Below, piece after piece: positions 1,014 through 6,991 of a DNA stretch of 6,991 nt (position 1 is the stretch's first letter; the number at the start of each line of letters is the position of its first letter). The DNA comes from Actinomycetota bacterium (GTDB lineage: Bacteria > Actinomycetota > Thermoleophilia > Solirubrobacterales > Solirubrobacteraceae). The notes under the pieces were generated by a model. The model was not told where the DNA came from. It ran no database searches and was given only the letters and a program-made list of their open reading frames with translations. Location of the stretch: the NCBI GenBank assembly GCA_903970315.1, contig CAJCIJ010000342.1, forward strand, positions 1 to 6,991, in the 5' to 3' direction. The translations under genes and the position numbers were made by a program.

Positions 1014-1829
1014 TCAAGGCGCCCAGTCGATGGCCGGTGCGGAGGCGTTGATCTTCGCCCACACCGCCTCGGTCCCTAACCCGTAGGCTCCTTCGCGCAC
1101 CCAGGCGTAGCCGGCGTTGCCCCAGCTTGTGTTCCAGCTATTGCGCATCTTCCAGCAGGTGAGCACCGCTTTGCCCCCGGTGATGTTGACCGCCACAGAG
1201 GTACTGCCCTTGCTGTCGTCCCAGCCGACGATAATCACGTCGTGGTCGATCTGGTCGGAAGTGCCGACGCCGATCCCCGTACCAGAATCCCAAAACGAGT
1301 CGCCGCCGGCGGCGACGCCGCTGCCAGCGCAACCGTAAGCCTTGATCGCGTCCTTGATTTGCTGTGCGGGAGTGACGCCGTTGCCTTGGGCGCCGTCCAC
1401 GAAGCCCCAATCGTCGGCCTTGTACAGCGTCATTCCTGGCTTGAAATTGCAGGTGCCAGCCTGAGCCGCGTACGCCCCGTAGTCGCTGGTCAGGGGCAAG
1501 CCCGTCGCCTTGGCCCATTCAAGCACGGTGGTATTGTCGTCCCCGTCGCAGCCACCATTCTTGCCGCAGGACAGGGTGTATTCTTCCGACAGGACGACGG
1601 TGTTCAGCCCCACCATCCAGTAGGCGATTTCGACGACGCCCGTGCCGGAAAAGCACCAGCACGAGCCGCATTGTCCCTGGTCCTTGATCGGCGGCACCCA
1701 ACCCAGCGCGACGCTGTCCCAGGTCGGTTCGGTGGCCCGTGCCAGCGGCGCTCGCTTGCGCCGCAGCGAGAGAGCGATCAAGTGATCCTTGTTCGGGGCG
1801 CGGCGGTGACCTGTATAACCTCGTGGCAT
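1014..1829 (-). CDS. Papain-family (C1A) cysteine peptidase (271 aa)
   Basis: This is a papain-like endopeptidase with all key residues. The oxyanion-hole Gln is Q51 and the nucleophile is C57 in KDQGQCGSCWCF. The catalytic His is H196 in IDHDVIIVGW, and the Asn is N230 in RNSWNTSWGNAGYAWV. LSEEYTLSCGKNGGCDGD matches the papain LSEQELLDC...GCNGG region. Cysteines C54/C94 and C88/C127 match papain's C22-C63 and C56-C95 disulfides; the C88-C127 spacing of 39 is the same as in papain. Only about 36 residues precede the mature-like start (TWDSVALGW), a basic stretch with no signal peptide and no I29-type inhibitory propeptide. The ATG at 1829 has an AAGGAG nine bases upstream and lies one base after the preceding stop. 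The unusual Asn in NSWN replaces the common Gly. The family assignment is firm; the target (host envelope, virion or host protein) is unknown. Confidence 0.93.
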   Translation of the reverse strand: MPRGYTGHRRAPNKDHLIALSLRRKRAPLARATEPTWDSVALGWVPPIKDQGQCGSCWCFSGTGVVEIAYWMVGLNTVVLSEEYTLSCGKNGGCDGDDNTTVLEWAKATGLPLTSDYGAYAAQAGTCNFKPGMTLYKADDWGFVDGAQGNGVTPAQQIKDAIKAYGCAGSGVAAGGDSFWDSGTGIGVGTSDQIDHDVIIVGWDDSKGSTSVAVNITGGKAVLTCWKMRNSWNTSWGNAGYAWVREGAYGLGTEAVWAKINASAPAIDWAP

Positions 1830-1830
1830 G

Positions 1831-2697
1831 CTACCTGGCTCCTTGCGGTGAGAGATTGGCGAGGGCGGTACTGATCTTGACCAATTCCGCTGCCAGCGCC
1901 GTCACGTCGATCGGCAGGGCGGCCTGCGTGCCGAACTGAGCGACCATCTCGGCGCCGATGGCTTTCTTCAGGTTGACGAGCTGTGTTGGCGACAGTCCGA
2001 CGCGCTTGCCTTGCGGAGTCAGCGCCGCCGAATCGACCTTGGCTTTGATCCACGCGACGGCGTCGCTATTGGTCTTGATCGTGCTGGGGACGGCGACCGA
2101 CATGCCCGCGTACACCACCTGCAAGTACGCCAGTGACGCCGCCCTGTCACTGTCCGTGTCCAGCGCGTAAGCCGTCTGCAAAGCCTTCGTCAGCGGGTCC
2201 ACCGGCGCGGGCGGGGTCGGGGGAGTCGGCGGCACTGGCGGAGCCGGCGTGTCGCCCGTCACGTCGAGACACACTCTAATCCGGTTCGTCTTTACCGCCG
2301 CGACCGGTGGTTTCTCCAGGTCCGGCGACGGCCAGCTAATGACGAGATCCGTCTTGCCCGTGGCAACGGCGGACACCGCGTAGACGTATTTGTCTGTCAC
2401 CGTGCGGTCTTCGTAGCCCGTGCCGTCGGTGAACTTCGTGTGCGCGAACGTGACCGGCCCGGTGTAGGGCGTGATCGTCACGATACCCTGCGTGCCGTCG
2501 ACCACGTCGAGAGACACCGACGAGCGAATCAGGTATACCTGGTCGGCCGCCAGCTTCGCCGGGACTTTCGGAGCCGGCGGCACGGGCGGGATGGGCGGCA
2601 AGCCCGGCAGCACGACGGGGGCCGCCGGCGTGGGGTCCGCGGCGTGGAGCGGAGCGGCGAGAGCGAACAGCAGCAGGAGAGGCCAGAGTCTTTTCAC
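1831..2697 (-). CDS. Secreted two-domain protein with Pro-rich linkers (288 aa)
   Basis: The N-terminus is a clear Sec signal peptide: Lys-Arg, a hydrophobic core (LWPLLLLFALAAP) and a likely cut after LHA near residue 19. No Cys lies at the cut site, so it is not a lipoprotein. A Pro-rich stretch (about 22-47) leads to a beta-rich domain (about 50-146) containing DQVYLIRSSVSLDVV and DLVISWPSP. A second Pro-rich linker (about 151-168) leads to an all-helical domain (169-285). The start is GTG at 2697 with a GAGG that overlaps the stop of the upstream gene. I cannot name a family; the helical tail resembles domains I associate with planctomycete secreted proteins, which is a weak impression. 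It sits one base before the peptidase gene, so the two are very likely made together, and it could be a partner, anchor or inhibitor of the peptidase. Confidence 0.82.
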   Translation of the reverse strand: MKRLWPLLLLFALAAPLHAADPTPAAPVVLPGLPPIPPVPPAPKVPAKLAADQVYLIRSSVSLDVVDGTQGIVTITPYTGPVTFAHTKFTDGTGYEDRTVTDKYVYAVSAVATGKTDLVISWPSPDLEKPPVAAVKTNRIRVCLDVTGDTPAPPVPPTPPTPPAPVDPLTKALQTAYALDTDSDRAASLAYLQVVYAGMSVAVPSTIKTNSDAVAWIKAKVDSAALTPQGKRVGLSPTQLVNLKKAIGAEMVAQFGTQAALPIDVTALAAELVKISTALANLSPQGAR

Positions 2698-3115: not shown

Positions 3116-3325
3116 CTACCTCGTGAGGACCGGGACGCCGCCGACGAGCGACAAGAGCACGCCGATGATGACCAGCACGGCGAAGACGACCACGACGATA
3201 CGGGCGATCTTGTTGAACGGCTCCGGCAGACCGCAGTAGCCGATGAGCCACAACAAGAGCCAGACAATCAGGCCGGTCACAATGAGGTACAAGACGACGG
3301 CTACCAGCGTGCCGAGCGATAACAT
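3116..3325 (-). CDS. Small two-helix membrane protein, Thivi_2564-like (69 aa)
   Basis: Two long hydrophobic helices, about 5-30 (GTLVAVVLYLIVTGLIVWLL onwards) and 41-63 (ARIVVVVFAVLVIIGVLLSL), are joined by a short loop (LPEPFNKI). This layout, with a Pro-containing loop followed by a basic residue and a run of Ile/Val, resembles the Thivi_2564-type small membrane proteins found in phages and bacteria, whose role is unknown; the match is from memory. I chose the ATG at 3325, which puts the first helix at the N-terminus as expected. An upstream ATG at 3367 would add 14 polar residues, but those codons overlap one copy of a duplicated 12-bp element. Neither start has a good ribosome site. Holin-like action is possible but unproven. 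Confidence 0.72.
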   Translation of the reverse strand: MLSLGTLVAVVLYLIVTGLIVWLLLWLIGYCGLPEPFNKIARIVVVVFAVLVIIGVLLSLVGGVPVLTR

Positions 3326-3345
3326 GACGACACCGCACTTTCGAG

Positions 3346-3458
3346 AAAAGAGCCGGTCTAGCCCCATTGCTTCGACCGGTTCCGTCCGGCACTTCCCGGA
3401 GTCCTACAAGGGATGCTTCCAGGCCAGAGATAAAAGAGCCGGTTAAACTCCTACAAGG
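3346..3458. repeat. Duplicated A-B element upstream of membrane-protein cluster
   Basis: Two short motifs each occur twice in the same order. AAAAGAGCCGGT is at 3346-3357 and 3432-3443, and TCCTACAAGG is at 3402-3411 and 3449-3458, all exact. On the minus strand the order is A (CCTTGTAGGA), B (ACCGGCTCTTTT), A, B, with 5 bases between A and B in the first copy and 44 in the second. The position in the leader of the membrane-protein/peptidase cluster suggests a regulatory role or an old partial duplication. Confidence 0.5.
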
Positions 3459-4289: not shown

Positions 4290-4448
4290 CTACCAGCGCT
4301 CCGTCTTGAAGAACCCAAACGCCTTGCCTGCGACGGCCCGCAGCACGACGACTGTCAATTCCAGATACAGCGCCAGCGCTCCGTAGGGGAAACCCTCCTG
4401 CCGCGCGCCGTTGGTCAAGGAACGTCGGTACTCGCGCCAGGTCCTCAT
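4290..4448 (-). CDS. Very small membrane protein (52 aa)
   Basis: Reading from the ATG at 4448-4446 gives an uninterrupted 52-codon frame ending in TAG at 4292-4290. The product has a basic N-terminus (MRTWREYRRSLTNGARQEGF), one hydrophobic segment of about 25 residues (ALALYLELTVVVLRAVAGKA and neighbours) and a short basic tail (FFKTERW). Its ATG overlaps the TGA of the 103-aa gene as ATGA, and a GGAGG lies ten bases upstream. Its stop is two bases before the next ATG. It fills exactly the 157-base gap that would otherwise lie between two tightly packed genes, which strongly supports it as real. It is likely a single-pass inner-membrane protein. I recognise no family; a small lysis or assembly factor is possible. 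Confidence 0.72.
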   Translation of the reverse strand: MRTWREYRRSLTNGARQEGFPYGALALYLELTVVVLRAVAGKAFGFFKTERW

Positions 4449-4756
4449 GGGAGCTTGGCCTCCGCGATGGCCGCCACCGTGTCGCCGATGACGGCCAGTT
4501 GCGCGCCGGTCGTGACCGCGTGCTGGGCCAGCGTCTCTTTCATCGCCAGCGTCGCGGCGGCGTCGTCCTTCGCGGCCTTGGCCGCGGCCGCGCTGTCGAG
4601 CTGGGCTTGCAGCGCGGCCGCTTTCGCGTCGGCCTTGGCGTCGTCGGCACGCTGGCGGTCCAGGTACTCCTTGACCGCGAGGCCGCCGGCGACAATAAAC
4701 GCCTGGGCGGTGACGCCGATCATGGCAATCAGGGCGAGTTGGACCGTGTCAGACAC
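4445..4756 (-). CDS. N-terminally membrane-anchored coiled-coil protein (103 aa)
   Basis: One N-terminal transmembrane segment (about 6-27, QLALIAMIGVTAQAFIVAGG) is followed by a long Ala-rich, highly charged helix (30-100) with many Lys/Asp pairs, consistent with a coiled coil or extended rod. The start is GTG at 4756 with GAGGAG six bases upstream; that site overlaps the region just after the stop of the previous gene, ten bases away. The layout recalls spanin-type or other phage envelope proteins, and also generic anchored rods; no conserved motif settles it. It follows a protein with the opposite topology (C-terminal anchor plus coiled coil), so the two could form a pair in the same membrane. 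Confidence 0.75.
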   Translation of the reverse strand: MSDTVQLALIAMIGVTAQAFIVAGGLAVKEYLDRQRADDAKADAKAAALQAQLDSAAAAKAAKDDAAATLAMKETLAQHAVTTGAQLAVIGDTVAAIAEAKLP

Positions 4757-5641: not shown

Positions 5642-5974
5642 CTAACTCCCGCTCACCTGAAACGGCAGCGGCTTGGTGACCTGCACGAAGCCGAACGCAT
5701 CGGTGAAGGTCCACGTCCGCGCCCACAGACCCGGCGTGTTGACAGTCCAGGCCGGGGCCGTGACGTTGTTGGTGGCGATGGCGCAGACGAGTACCGTTGG
5801 GGCCGCGCCGCCGCTGGGGGTGAGCTTGAGGGTCGCGGAACCGCCGGTCAGATCCCAGGGAGCGGCCACGGGCGGCACGGCATCGTTCTGGAGCAGGATG
5901 TTCAGGGCGGCGAACACTTCGGTGGCGCCGGCCACGAGGGGGTCGATTTCGGTGGTGGTGAAGGACACAAGCAT
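5642..5974 (-). CDS. Beta-rich baseplate/Ig-like protein (110 aa)
   Basis: The core PWDLTGGSATLKLTPSGG, followed by PAWTVNTPGLWARTWTFTD and a final strand with PLPFQVSGS, recalls the N-terminal domain of phage baseplate upper proteins (BppU_N) and related Ig-like modules, where the chain folds as a beta sandwich after a (D)LTG motif. The N-terminal 30 residues are helical and may link it to a partner. The similarity is to a general pattern, so virion attachment or receptor binding is an inference. The ATG at 5974 has AGGGAG upstream that overlaps the stop of the repeat gene, ten bases away. Only one Cys is present, and there is no signal peptide or membrane helix. It is probably co-translated with the repeat protein. 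Confidence 0.7.
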   Translation of the reverse strand: MLVSFTTTEIDPLVAGATEVFAALNILLQNDAVPPVAAPWDLTGGSATLKLTPSGGAAPTVLVCAIATNNVTAPAWTVNTPGLWARTWTFTDAFGFVQVTKPLPFQVSGS

Positions 5975-5984
5975 CGGCGGCTCC

Positions 5985-6991
5985 CTAGGTAAACGTCACC
6001 GCATCGACGATGACAGCGGCGAACACCGCGGTATCGACGATGCTGCTGGCGAACACCAGGCCATCGTCGGCGATAGCCGCGAACGCCAGCGTGTCCACGA
6101 CGCTGCTGGCCAACAGGGCGGTATCGACGATTTGGCTGGCGAACACCAGGCTGTCGATGATCGTGGGGGCGACGTAGTGAATGACGGCGATGAACGCCGC
6201 GTCCGCGAGAGCTGGGGCATCGGTGGTGAGCCGCGCGCCGGCCCAGGTCCGCGTCACCCGCTCCGCGAGGCCCGGAGCGTCTGTTACCGTACGCGCGCGG
6301 GCGCTGTTGCCGGCGGCGCTCTCGCTGGTGGTCGGAGCGTCCGTGGCGCTGCGCGGCTCGGAGATGGCGCGCGCGCCACTGTCGGCCGTTGCCGGGATCT
6401 CCGTGGTGACGCGATTGCCCGTGAATAACCGGGAGGCCGCCTCCGCGAACGTGGGCGTGTCCGCGGTAAAGCACACAGCCGCCAGCGCCCGCGTCAGCAG
6501 CTCCGCTAGGGTAAGTGACTCCGTCGTAACGCGACTGCCCAGCCAGAGCCGCGCGTCCGTGTCCACGGCCGCCAGAGTCTCCGTGGTGACGCGATTGCTG
6601 GCCAGCACGCGCGCCACCAGCTCGGCGGTCGCCGGCGTGTCCACGCCGGCACGACCCATAACCGCGCTCCTGACGAGCAGTTCCCCCGTGGTCGGGTTAT
6701 CAGTCGTCGCGCGCGGCCCCTGCCAGAGCCGTCCTGCCGTCTCCGCCGTGGCCGGGGTGTCCGTGGCTGTCGCTGTCTTGCTATTGCCGGTGGAGGCAGT
6801 GTCGAAGAGGAGCGGGGCGTCCGCCGTGGTCCGTACCAGCAGCGCCAGGGCCGTGGTCGAGTCCGCGATACTCGGCGTGTCGCTCGCGGCCCGTGTGCTG
6901 CTTTGCTGGCGGCTGAGCAGCTCCGCCGTGGCCGCGGCGTCGGTAGTGGCCCGGAAACTCAGCAAGCCCCGGGACAGGCTGTCGGCTGTTA
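5985..6991 (-). CDS. Long tandem-repeat fibre-like protein, 5' end outside window
   Basis: The frame is open to the window edge, and the repeat runs straight through a TTG at 6965 that could be mistaken for a start, so the true start lies beyond 6991. The visible part is thirteen exact 20-residue units (consensus near TAELxxRxxxxxRxTTDxPA), one transition unit, five 10-residue units (like LVFASSIVDT) and a VTFT tail. An acidic residue occupies positions 3 and 17 in all thirteen units; Arg is at 13 in eleven and at 7 in ten; Pro is at 19 in ten. No insertion or deletion breaks the register. Such regular chains suit an elongated rod or fibre. The gene precedes a baseplate-like protein, so a phage tail-fibre or surface-display role is likely but not shown. 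Confidence 0.82.
   Translation of the reverse strand, partial: TADSLSRGLLSFRATTDAAATAELLSRQQSSTRAASDTPSIADSTTALALLVRTTADAPLLFDTASTGNSKTATATDTPATAETAGRLWQGPRATTDNPTTGELLVRSAVMGRAGVDTPATAELVARVLASNRVTTETLAAVDTDARLWLGSRVTTESLTLAELLTRALAAVCFTADTPTFAEAASRLFTGNRVTTEIPATADSGARAISEPRSATDAPTTSESAAGNSARARTVTDAPGLAERVTRTWAGARLTTDAPALADAAFIAVIHYVAPTIIDSLVFASQIVDTALLASSVVDTLAFAAIADDGLVFASSIVDTAVFAAVIVDAVTFT
6000..6149 (-). repeat. Five 30-bp tandem repeats (10-aa units)
   Basis: Units start at 6149, 6119, 6089, 6059 and 6029 on the minus strand and encode LVFASQIVDT, ALLASSVVDT, LAFAAIADDG, LVFASSIVDT and AVFAAVIVDA. Units 1 and 4 are near-identical, 90 bp apart. They form the hydrophobic C-terminal end of the repeat protein. 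Confidence 0.85.
6210..6989 (-). repeat. Thirteen 60-bp tandem repeats (20-aa units)
   Basis: Thirteen units of exactly 60 bp follow each other with no gap and continue out of the window. Most are diverged in DNA but conserved in protein. One 21-bp block beginning TCTCCGTGGTGACGCG is identical at 6398-6418 and 6578-6598, exactly 180 bp (three units) apart, pointing to fairly recent exchange or duplication between units. Confidence 0.88.

Follow-up and report, generated by a model that had tools for sequence, protein, structure and literature searches.

Shafts assembled from short tandem repeats are known from several viral proteins. In the triple beta-spiral of adenovirus and reovirus, the repeat is about 15 residues long and contains hydrophobic positions as well as a Pro/Gly turn, and such repeats follow one another in trimeric shafts of variable length. 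A second case is the virion spike of phage T4, in which the gp5 protein forms a triple-stranded beta-helix; according to the passages of PMC4576200 that deal with it, residues of the gp5 repeat form a ladder of E/K salt bridges, and a small hydrophobic core is found near the C-terminal end. Tandem repeats are also described, in part of PMC5537660, for the trimeric T4 tail fibers gp34 and gp12, where each repeat is of mixed alpha-beta structure, spans 33 to 46 residues and includes a loop of variable length.

The window examined here, a stretch of 6,991 nucleotides that corresponds to a whole contig (C342; CAJCIJ010000342.1) of an incomplete Solirubrobacteraceae genome bin (2.06 Mb in 379 contigs, 63% complete), is cut at one edge within a gene for a repeat protein (Table 1). 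The frame of this gene runs down from position 6989 and closes with a stop codon at 5985–5987, on the minus strand. Since the stop overlaps the GGGAG motif and the next start lies ten bases on, the repeat gene and its neighbor are likely co-expressed, on one transcript. The product of the neighboring gene matched neither Pfam nor PHROG at E 1, and when it was considered as a homologue of the C-terminus of P0013, no relationship emerged (E 0.28). As to the reading direction of the repeat, the homologous sense frame in the viral contig L005 runs for 1333 aa without a stop (encoding a protein with 30 units), and all three antisense frames of L005 contain stops across its two arrays.

Table 1. Features of the window discussed in the text (positions count from the first nucleotide of the window).
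Feature	Position	Strand	Basis or remark
Repeat-protein gene, 334 codons plus stop	5985..6989	-	open frame; 5' end beyond contig
Final 14 residues of an incomplete 20-residue unit (residues 1-14)	6948..6989	-	register
13 consecutive 20-residue units (residues 15-274)	6168..6947	-	register, self-match
Transition unit (residues 255-274)	6168..6227	-	both acids present, both Arg absent
Six 10-residue hydrophobic rows (residues 275-334)	5988..6167	-	period 10; Asp at the same place in each row (6/6)
GGGAG, likely ribosome-binding site of the next gene	5981..5985	-	overlaps repeat-gene stop
110-aa protein	5642..5974	-	starts 10 bases past repeat-gene stop
Papain-family peptidase	1014..1829	-	Pfam PF00112, E 6.7e-32
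288-aa protein	1831..2697	-	weak: 28% over 118 aa, E 0.015, to an L004 gene near the peptidase

When residues 1–275 of the protein were matched against themselves, the score peaked at offsets of 20 and 40 (0.294 each); most of the remaining offsets gave 0.07–0.12, with minor peaks (0.13–0.20) at 6, 14, 24, 26, 34, 36, and 38. Over residues 271–334, the peaks were at offsets of 10 and 20 (0.38). Every unit of the array (13/13) has an acidic residue at position 3 and another at position 9, and Arg occupies position 13 in 9/13 units and position 19 in 10/13, whereas no column collected more than 8 acidic residues or 7 Arg when the array was shuffled 2000 times. The last of these 20-mers is the transition unit. 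The thirteen contiguous 20-residue units with fixed charges claimed by the original prediction (whose positions 17, 3, 7, and 13 are our 3, 9, 13, and 19) are therefore real, and so is the change to hydrophobic repeats of ten residues, of which we count six rows within the period-10 region. The repeats had also been called exact; this holds for the length of the units, but not for their sequence, as the units of the window are on average 30% identical. Given this figure, and given that 238 of the 466 pairs of identical residues in the array are encoded by different codons, the array is not a recent DNA duplication, and its regularity was kept under divergence.

With T4 gp5, as portrayed in part of PMC4576200, the window protein shares a short repeat of even length and a hydrophobic C-terminal end and would share, if our reading is right, a salt-bridge ladder and a place on a phage virion. 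However, the gp5 motif (VxGxxxxx) has 8 residues, whereas the unit described here has 20 (2 × 10), with acidic and basic halves segregated. The self-match at offset 8 was 0.097, i.e., at background, against 0.294 at offset 20, and a PDB sequence search returned no match of the repeat to gp5. The adenovirus and reovirus shafts are similar in being tandem arrays of short repeats that vary in length, although the trimer is only predicted in our case; they differ in their period, as well as in their hydrophobic positions, the 20-residue unit being charged and of little hydrophobicity. An offset of 15 scored 0.108, again against 0.294 at 20. The tandem arrangement is common also to gp34 and gp12, but the present unit is shorter than the repeats reported for these fibers. 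Overall, we estimate at about an even chance that the repeats form the length-adjustable shaft of a tailed-phage virion fiber, which would be made of beta strands from several (probably three) identical chains.

The 20-residue unit is present in 14 proteins besides that of the window, giving a curated set of 156 units in 15 proteins. The first relative was P0001; the others came from chained searches, from scans of IMG/VR (L005, L006, and L017) and from one genome of the same phylum (L009). A profile of the unit detected 157 units in 17 proteins, with neighboring units exactly 20 residues apart in 129 of 140 cases, and found 0–2 units per set in 20 shuffled sets; as these units had served to train the profile, the regularity of its counts is partly built in. 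In 13 of the 17 proteins the longest unbroken run comprised 5 to 18 units; in the remaining 4 it consisted of 1 or 2. One viral contig, L017, had been left out of the training and was tested afterwards. Its raw self-match tops at offset 20 (0.38). The profile accepts 13 of its units, against 0 in each of 20 shuffles; these have D3, P5, and D9 in 13/13, R13 in 9/13 and R19 in 10/13, a pattern that is partly imposed by the profile. The L017 units also have Phe at positions 1 and 11, and the array contains the string SYLGNVVLG. The window protein belongs to the D-P-E-R-R group, defined by a period of 20 in which positions 3 and 9 are acidic and positions 13 and 19 are Arg. Two expectations voiced beforehand, that relatives would keep both the register and the charge pattern and that they would differ in copy number, agree with the units recognized in the 17 proteins and in L017, and with runs that range from 1 to 18 units.

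Two proteins at the margin of this set deserve mention. L007, a Limosilactobacillus protein, was rejected as a relative by eye from its sequence. P0016, with units resembling SDSP/SDSARAYRS, has a profile E of 2.5e-8 with only one unit above threshold, and is reminiscent of archaeal surface proteins. Tblastn searches of annotated phages (50,697 records, with the low-complexity filter on) and of plasmids gave no match to the repeat, although the BLAST filter may mask repeats. In the scans of viral contigs, the window protein matched none directly, L009 gave no match, L005 retrieved only itself, and the C-terminal ten-residue rows alone retrieved no relative.

For the window protein, the best Pfam match had an E of 0.04 (14.1 bits, against a cut-off of 25), the best PHROG match an E of 0.72, and the PDB gave no match by sequence. 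When the profile was run against the PDB, it gave two weak matches, at E 0.026 and 0.5, both to designed helical repeats and both judged to be due to chance. Among 10 relatives, Pfam returned two matches at E 0.03, both under cut-off; the array proteins of L005 and L017 had no PHROG match at E 0.01 and E 0.001, respectively. The earlier statement that the repeat is not assignable to any named family is thus upheld, since none of the sequence matches in Pfam, PHROG or the PDB is credible. The opening lines of the abstracts that led the results of a literature search did not describe this repeat, and a text-string search was without match. Judging from sequence, we read the unit as a putative new repeat family; we take it to function like the repeat shafts of known viral fibers, yet to lie outside all the repeat families tested.

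The distribution of charges along the unit follows a rule. In the 156 curated units, 584 of 611 charges stand at odd positions and 27 at even ones (49 and 1, respectively, in the window units). Ser, Thr, or Ala account for at least 80% of the residues at positions 2, 4, 6, 8, 10, 12, and 20 of the curated units, but for merely 44–63% at the even positions 14, 16, and 18, and the consensus has few large hydrophobic residues apart from position 17. When position 13 is not basic, which is the case in 39 of the 156 units, a basic residue is found at 15 in 16 units and at 15 or 17 in 21, but never at 14 or 16 (0/39). Conversely, the 117 units with a basic residue at 13 have a second one at 15 in no case, and at 15 or 17 in 3; these counts are uncorrected for kinship. 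The shift to position 15 was found in 11 of the 15 proteins. Four of the 13 window units have no basic residue at 13, with none basic at 15 and two at 17, and in L017 the shift is absent (of its 4 units without R13, none has K/R at 15 or 17). Movement of the basic residue in steps of two places would fit a single face of an extended beta strand.

The spacing of positions 3, 9, 13, and 19 puts the charges at equivalent places in the two ten-residue halves of the unit, with acids in the first half and bases in the other. When residues were grouped by class (charged or amide, small, hydrophobic, turn), the profile of the unit showed an autocorrelation of 0.79 at a shift of 10, a value not equaled by any of 5000 column permutations. 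Without the four charged columns, the correlation fell to 0.47 (p 0.010, or 0.17 with odd and even columns kept separate), so that a reading as two decads rests mostly on charge placement. On this basis, the 20-residue unit reads as an acidic decad followed by a basic decad.

The original prediction had envisaged a defined fold, a rod or a solenoid. Of this proposal the conserved register stands, whereas no fold was supported by AlphaFold2. The prediction was to fail if the model were disordered and relatives also lacked the register; of these two, only the first agrees with the results. A monomer run on the 334 residues, with an alignment of 8 rows, had a mean pLDDT of 35.7; in the model, much of the array was drawn with two strands to each unit, and the ten-residue rows were drawn as helical (block pLDDT about 40–63). 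A second monomer run, on 7 units with 36 in-register rows, gave a pLDDT of 29.4 and short helices. Low AlphaFold2 confidence is not proof of disorder, and could be compatible with strands shared between chains as well as with real disorder. Nevertheless, with pLDDT values of 36 and 29, disorder becomes the main rival to a fiber shaft: the array might be a flexible, largely unfolded spacer between two modules, rich in Ser, Thr, Ala, and Pro and in paired charges, whose unit stems from old duplications. The very low confidence of both runs would be natural for such a spacer, and so would the scarcity of large hydrophobic residues in the consensus (position 17 and, in L017, Phe 1 and 11 being the exceptions), but a length of 20 residues maintained at 30% identity would not, and a spacer needs neither charges that shun even positions nor a basic residue that moves by two or four places only. 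We therefore consider a disordered spacer rather unlikely.

A monomeric beta solenoid, in which each 20-residue unit would make one turn, appears very improbable to us. Solenoids typically have coils of constant length whose charged positions stack, but the stacking would here bring like charges together in every coil; furthermore, single-chain solenoids are often predicted well by AlphaFold2, as opposed to the low score given by the seven-unit, 36-row run.

A fiber shaft belonging to a phage, on the other hand, is in keeping with the genes that surround several relatives. Portal and prohead protease genes are usually adjacent. In L005, the array gene follows a portal-like fragment (E 5.5e-4) and precedes the genes for a head maturation protease, a major head protein and a head-tail adaptor, with a glycosyltransferase gene in between. 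The L005 segment at 394–11466 is a cassette of unassigned proteins, the 30-unit protein and the glycosyltransferase, set between the portal-like fragment and the prohead protease. The array of L006 starts after a portal gene and a pectate-lyase-like gene. Since in both contigs the gene is located within or next to the portal-protease block, and not among recognized tail genes, a head fiber is possible there.

Other links are provided by the N-terminus. Four proteins (P0001, P0002, P0004, and P0005) begin with MAFTGRLGT, and an N-terminus of the MAFTG[RQ]LGT type opens the third gene past the tape measure in L016 (phrog_23013, E 3.7e-36) and the third gene past the baseplate-wedge gene in L003 (phrog_6, E 4.2e-16). 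L018 has a gene of this type, followed by one that weakly matches a tail fiber (E 1.1e-4), and in L017 such a gene lies 4.7 kb ahead of the array gene; the two L017 proteins were scanned and had no family match. This N-terminus looks like a common anchor module, whereas P0006, P0003, and P0011 have different N-terminal domains; P0006 carries a precomputed PF13385 label that a Pfam scan at E 0.1 did not return. In its longer form, MAFTG[RQ]LGTxxSxLxxIxLG, the start is seen on otherwise differing proteins (at 10001 in L003, 8001 in L016, 897 in L017, and 8001 in L018). In L016 (8001–9125), a MAFTGQLG start is followed by loose repeats like SDTLALVDLAEG, which resemble the acidic decad.

These associations also bear on the idea that the protein is a surface adhesin of the binned bacterium, with no connection to phages. 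The contig was indeed binned with a prokaryote assembly, and among 395 other genomes of the same phylum one does have the repeat. However, 38 further genomes from the family of that one genome do not have it, and neither the repeat nor the peptidase of the window was found in the 60 related genomes searched, 23 of which are of the same genus. Moreover, virion genes are recognizable on five IMG/VR contigs together with the repeat (L005 and L006) or with the N-terminal module (L003, L016, and L018, the last through its weak tail-fiber match). A bacterial adhesin is, in our judgment, quite unlikely.

Within the window itself, neither Pfam nor PHROG recognized any virion gene. The papain-family peptidase is 47% identical to a relative in L004, a viral contig that also carries a tape-measure-like gene (E 5.3e-7), and a phage origin of the window contig is probable. 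The enzyme, a cysteine peptidase, possibly serves in lysis or entry. Three small proteins, at 4445–4756, 3116–3367, and 2705–2914, appear by eye to be membrane-spanning, and the peptidase gene lies downstream of them; the 3116–3367 protein has a weak match to a holin (E 0.034).

The C-terminal switch was analyzed by scoring the ten-residue rows against the halves of the 20-residue unit. Compared with the acidic half of the window's own units, the rows fit in one phase (mean BLOSUM 5.95, next phase 0.66; column-permutation p 0.027), whereas the window's basic half scored negative at all ten phases. Compared with the acidic half of the whole family, the residue-shuffle p was 0.002 and the column-permutation p was 0.30, and the family basic half scored slightly higher than the acidic half (−5.69 vs −6.36). 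These results weakly suggest that the passage from 20 to 10 residues is a loss of the basic half, with rows plausibly derived from the acidic decad.

In L005 and P0001, too, the repeats become shorter toward the C-terminus: 14-residue repeats (FxLDAVLLxTQSxS) lie downstream of the 20-residue array, with one spacing of 13 in L005. The second tandem repeat of L005 is located at 5757–9758. P0004 shows a faint 14-residue trace (0.11 at offset 14, with a higher score at another offset), and the 14-residue type is found without any 20-residue units in P0002, P0005, P0007, and P0009. A derivation of the 14-residue repeats from the acidic decad was considered and discarded (permutation p 0.67–0.96 in 5 proteins). 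The periods of 10, 14, and 20 are all even, which is what a strand would require in order to maintain its two faces.

If the repeats do form a fiber shaft, each chain would run as an extended, two-faced beta strand, and its acidic blocks would pair with the basic blocks of a neighboring chain, yielding a salt-bridge ladder and a shaft with little hydrophobic core. Gain or loss of units would alter the length of the fiber while leaving the register intact. At the C-terminus, where the basic block would have been lost and the acidic-type block would have become hydrophobic, the chains may form a cap or a trimer-nucleating zone, and an N-terminal module past the contig edge would anchor the protein to the virion or bind the host surface. 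Such a fiber would likely help the phage to reach its host. A more specific proposal, which we regard as possible but doubtful, is that of a new fibrous architecture of tailed phages, in which alternating acidic and basic ten-residue strands would zip the chains together by charge rather than through a hydrophobic core, with extension in steps of 20 residues and a hydrophobic closure of the end where the basic half is missing.

The shafts of phage fibers set the reach and the rigidity of the host-binding tip. The sliding of the basic charge along the unit opens a direct structural test of the proposal. If a charge-zipped beta fiber is the correct reading, two decads and four charges would constitute a simple rule for a shaft of chosen length, and would offer a sequence mark by which fiber genes could be spotted in unassigned phage DNA.
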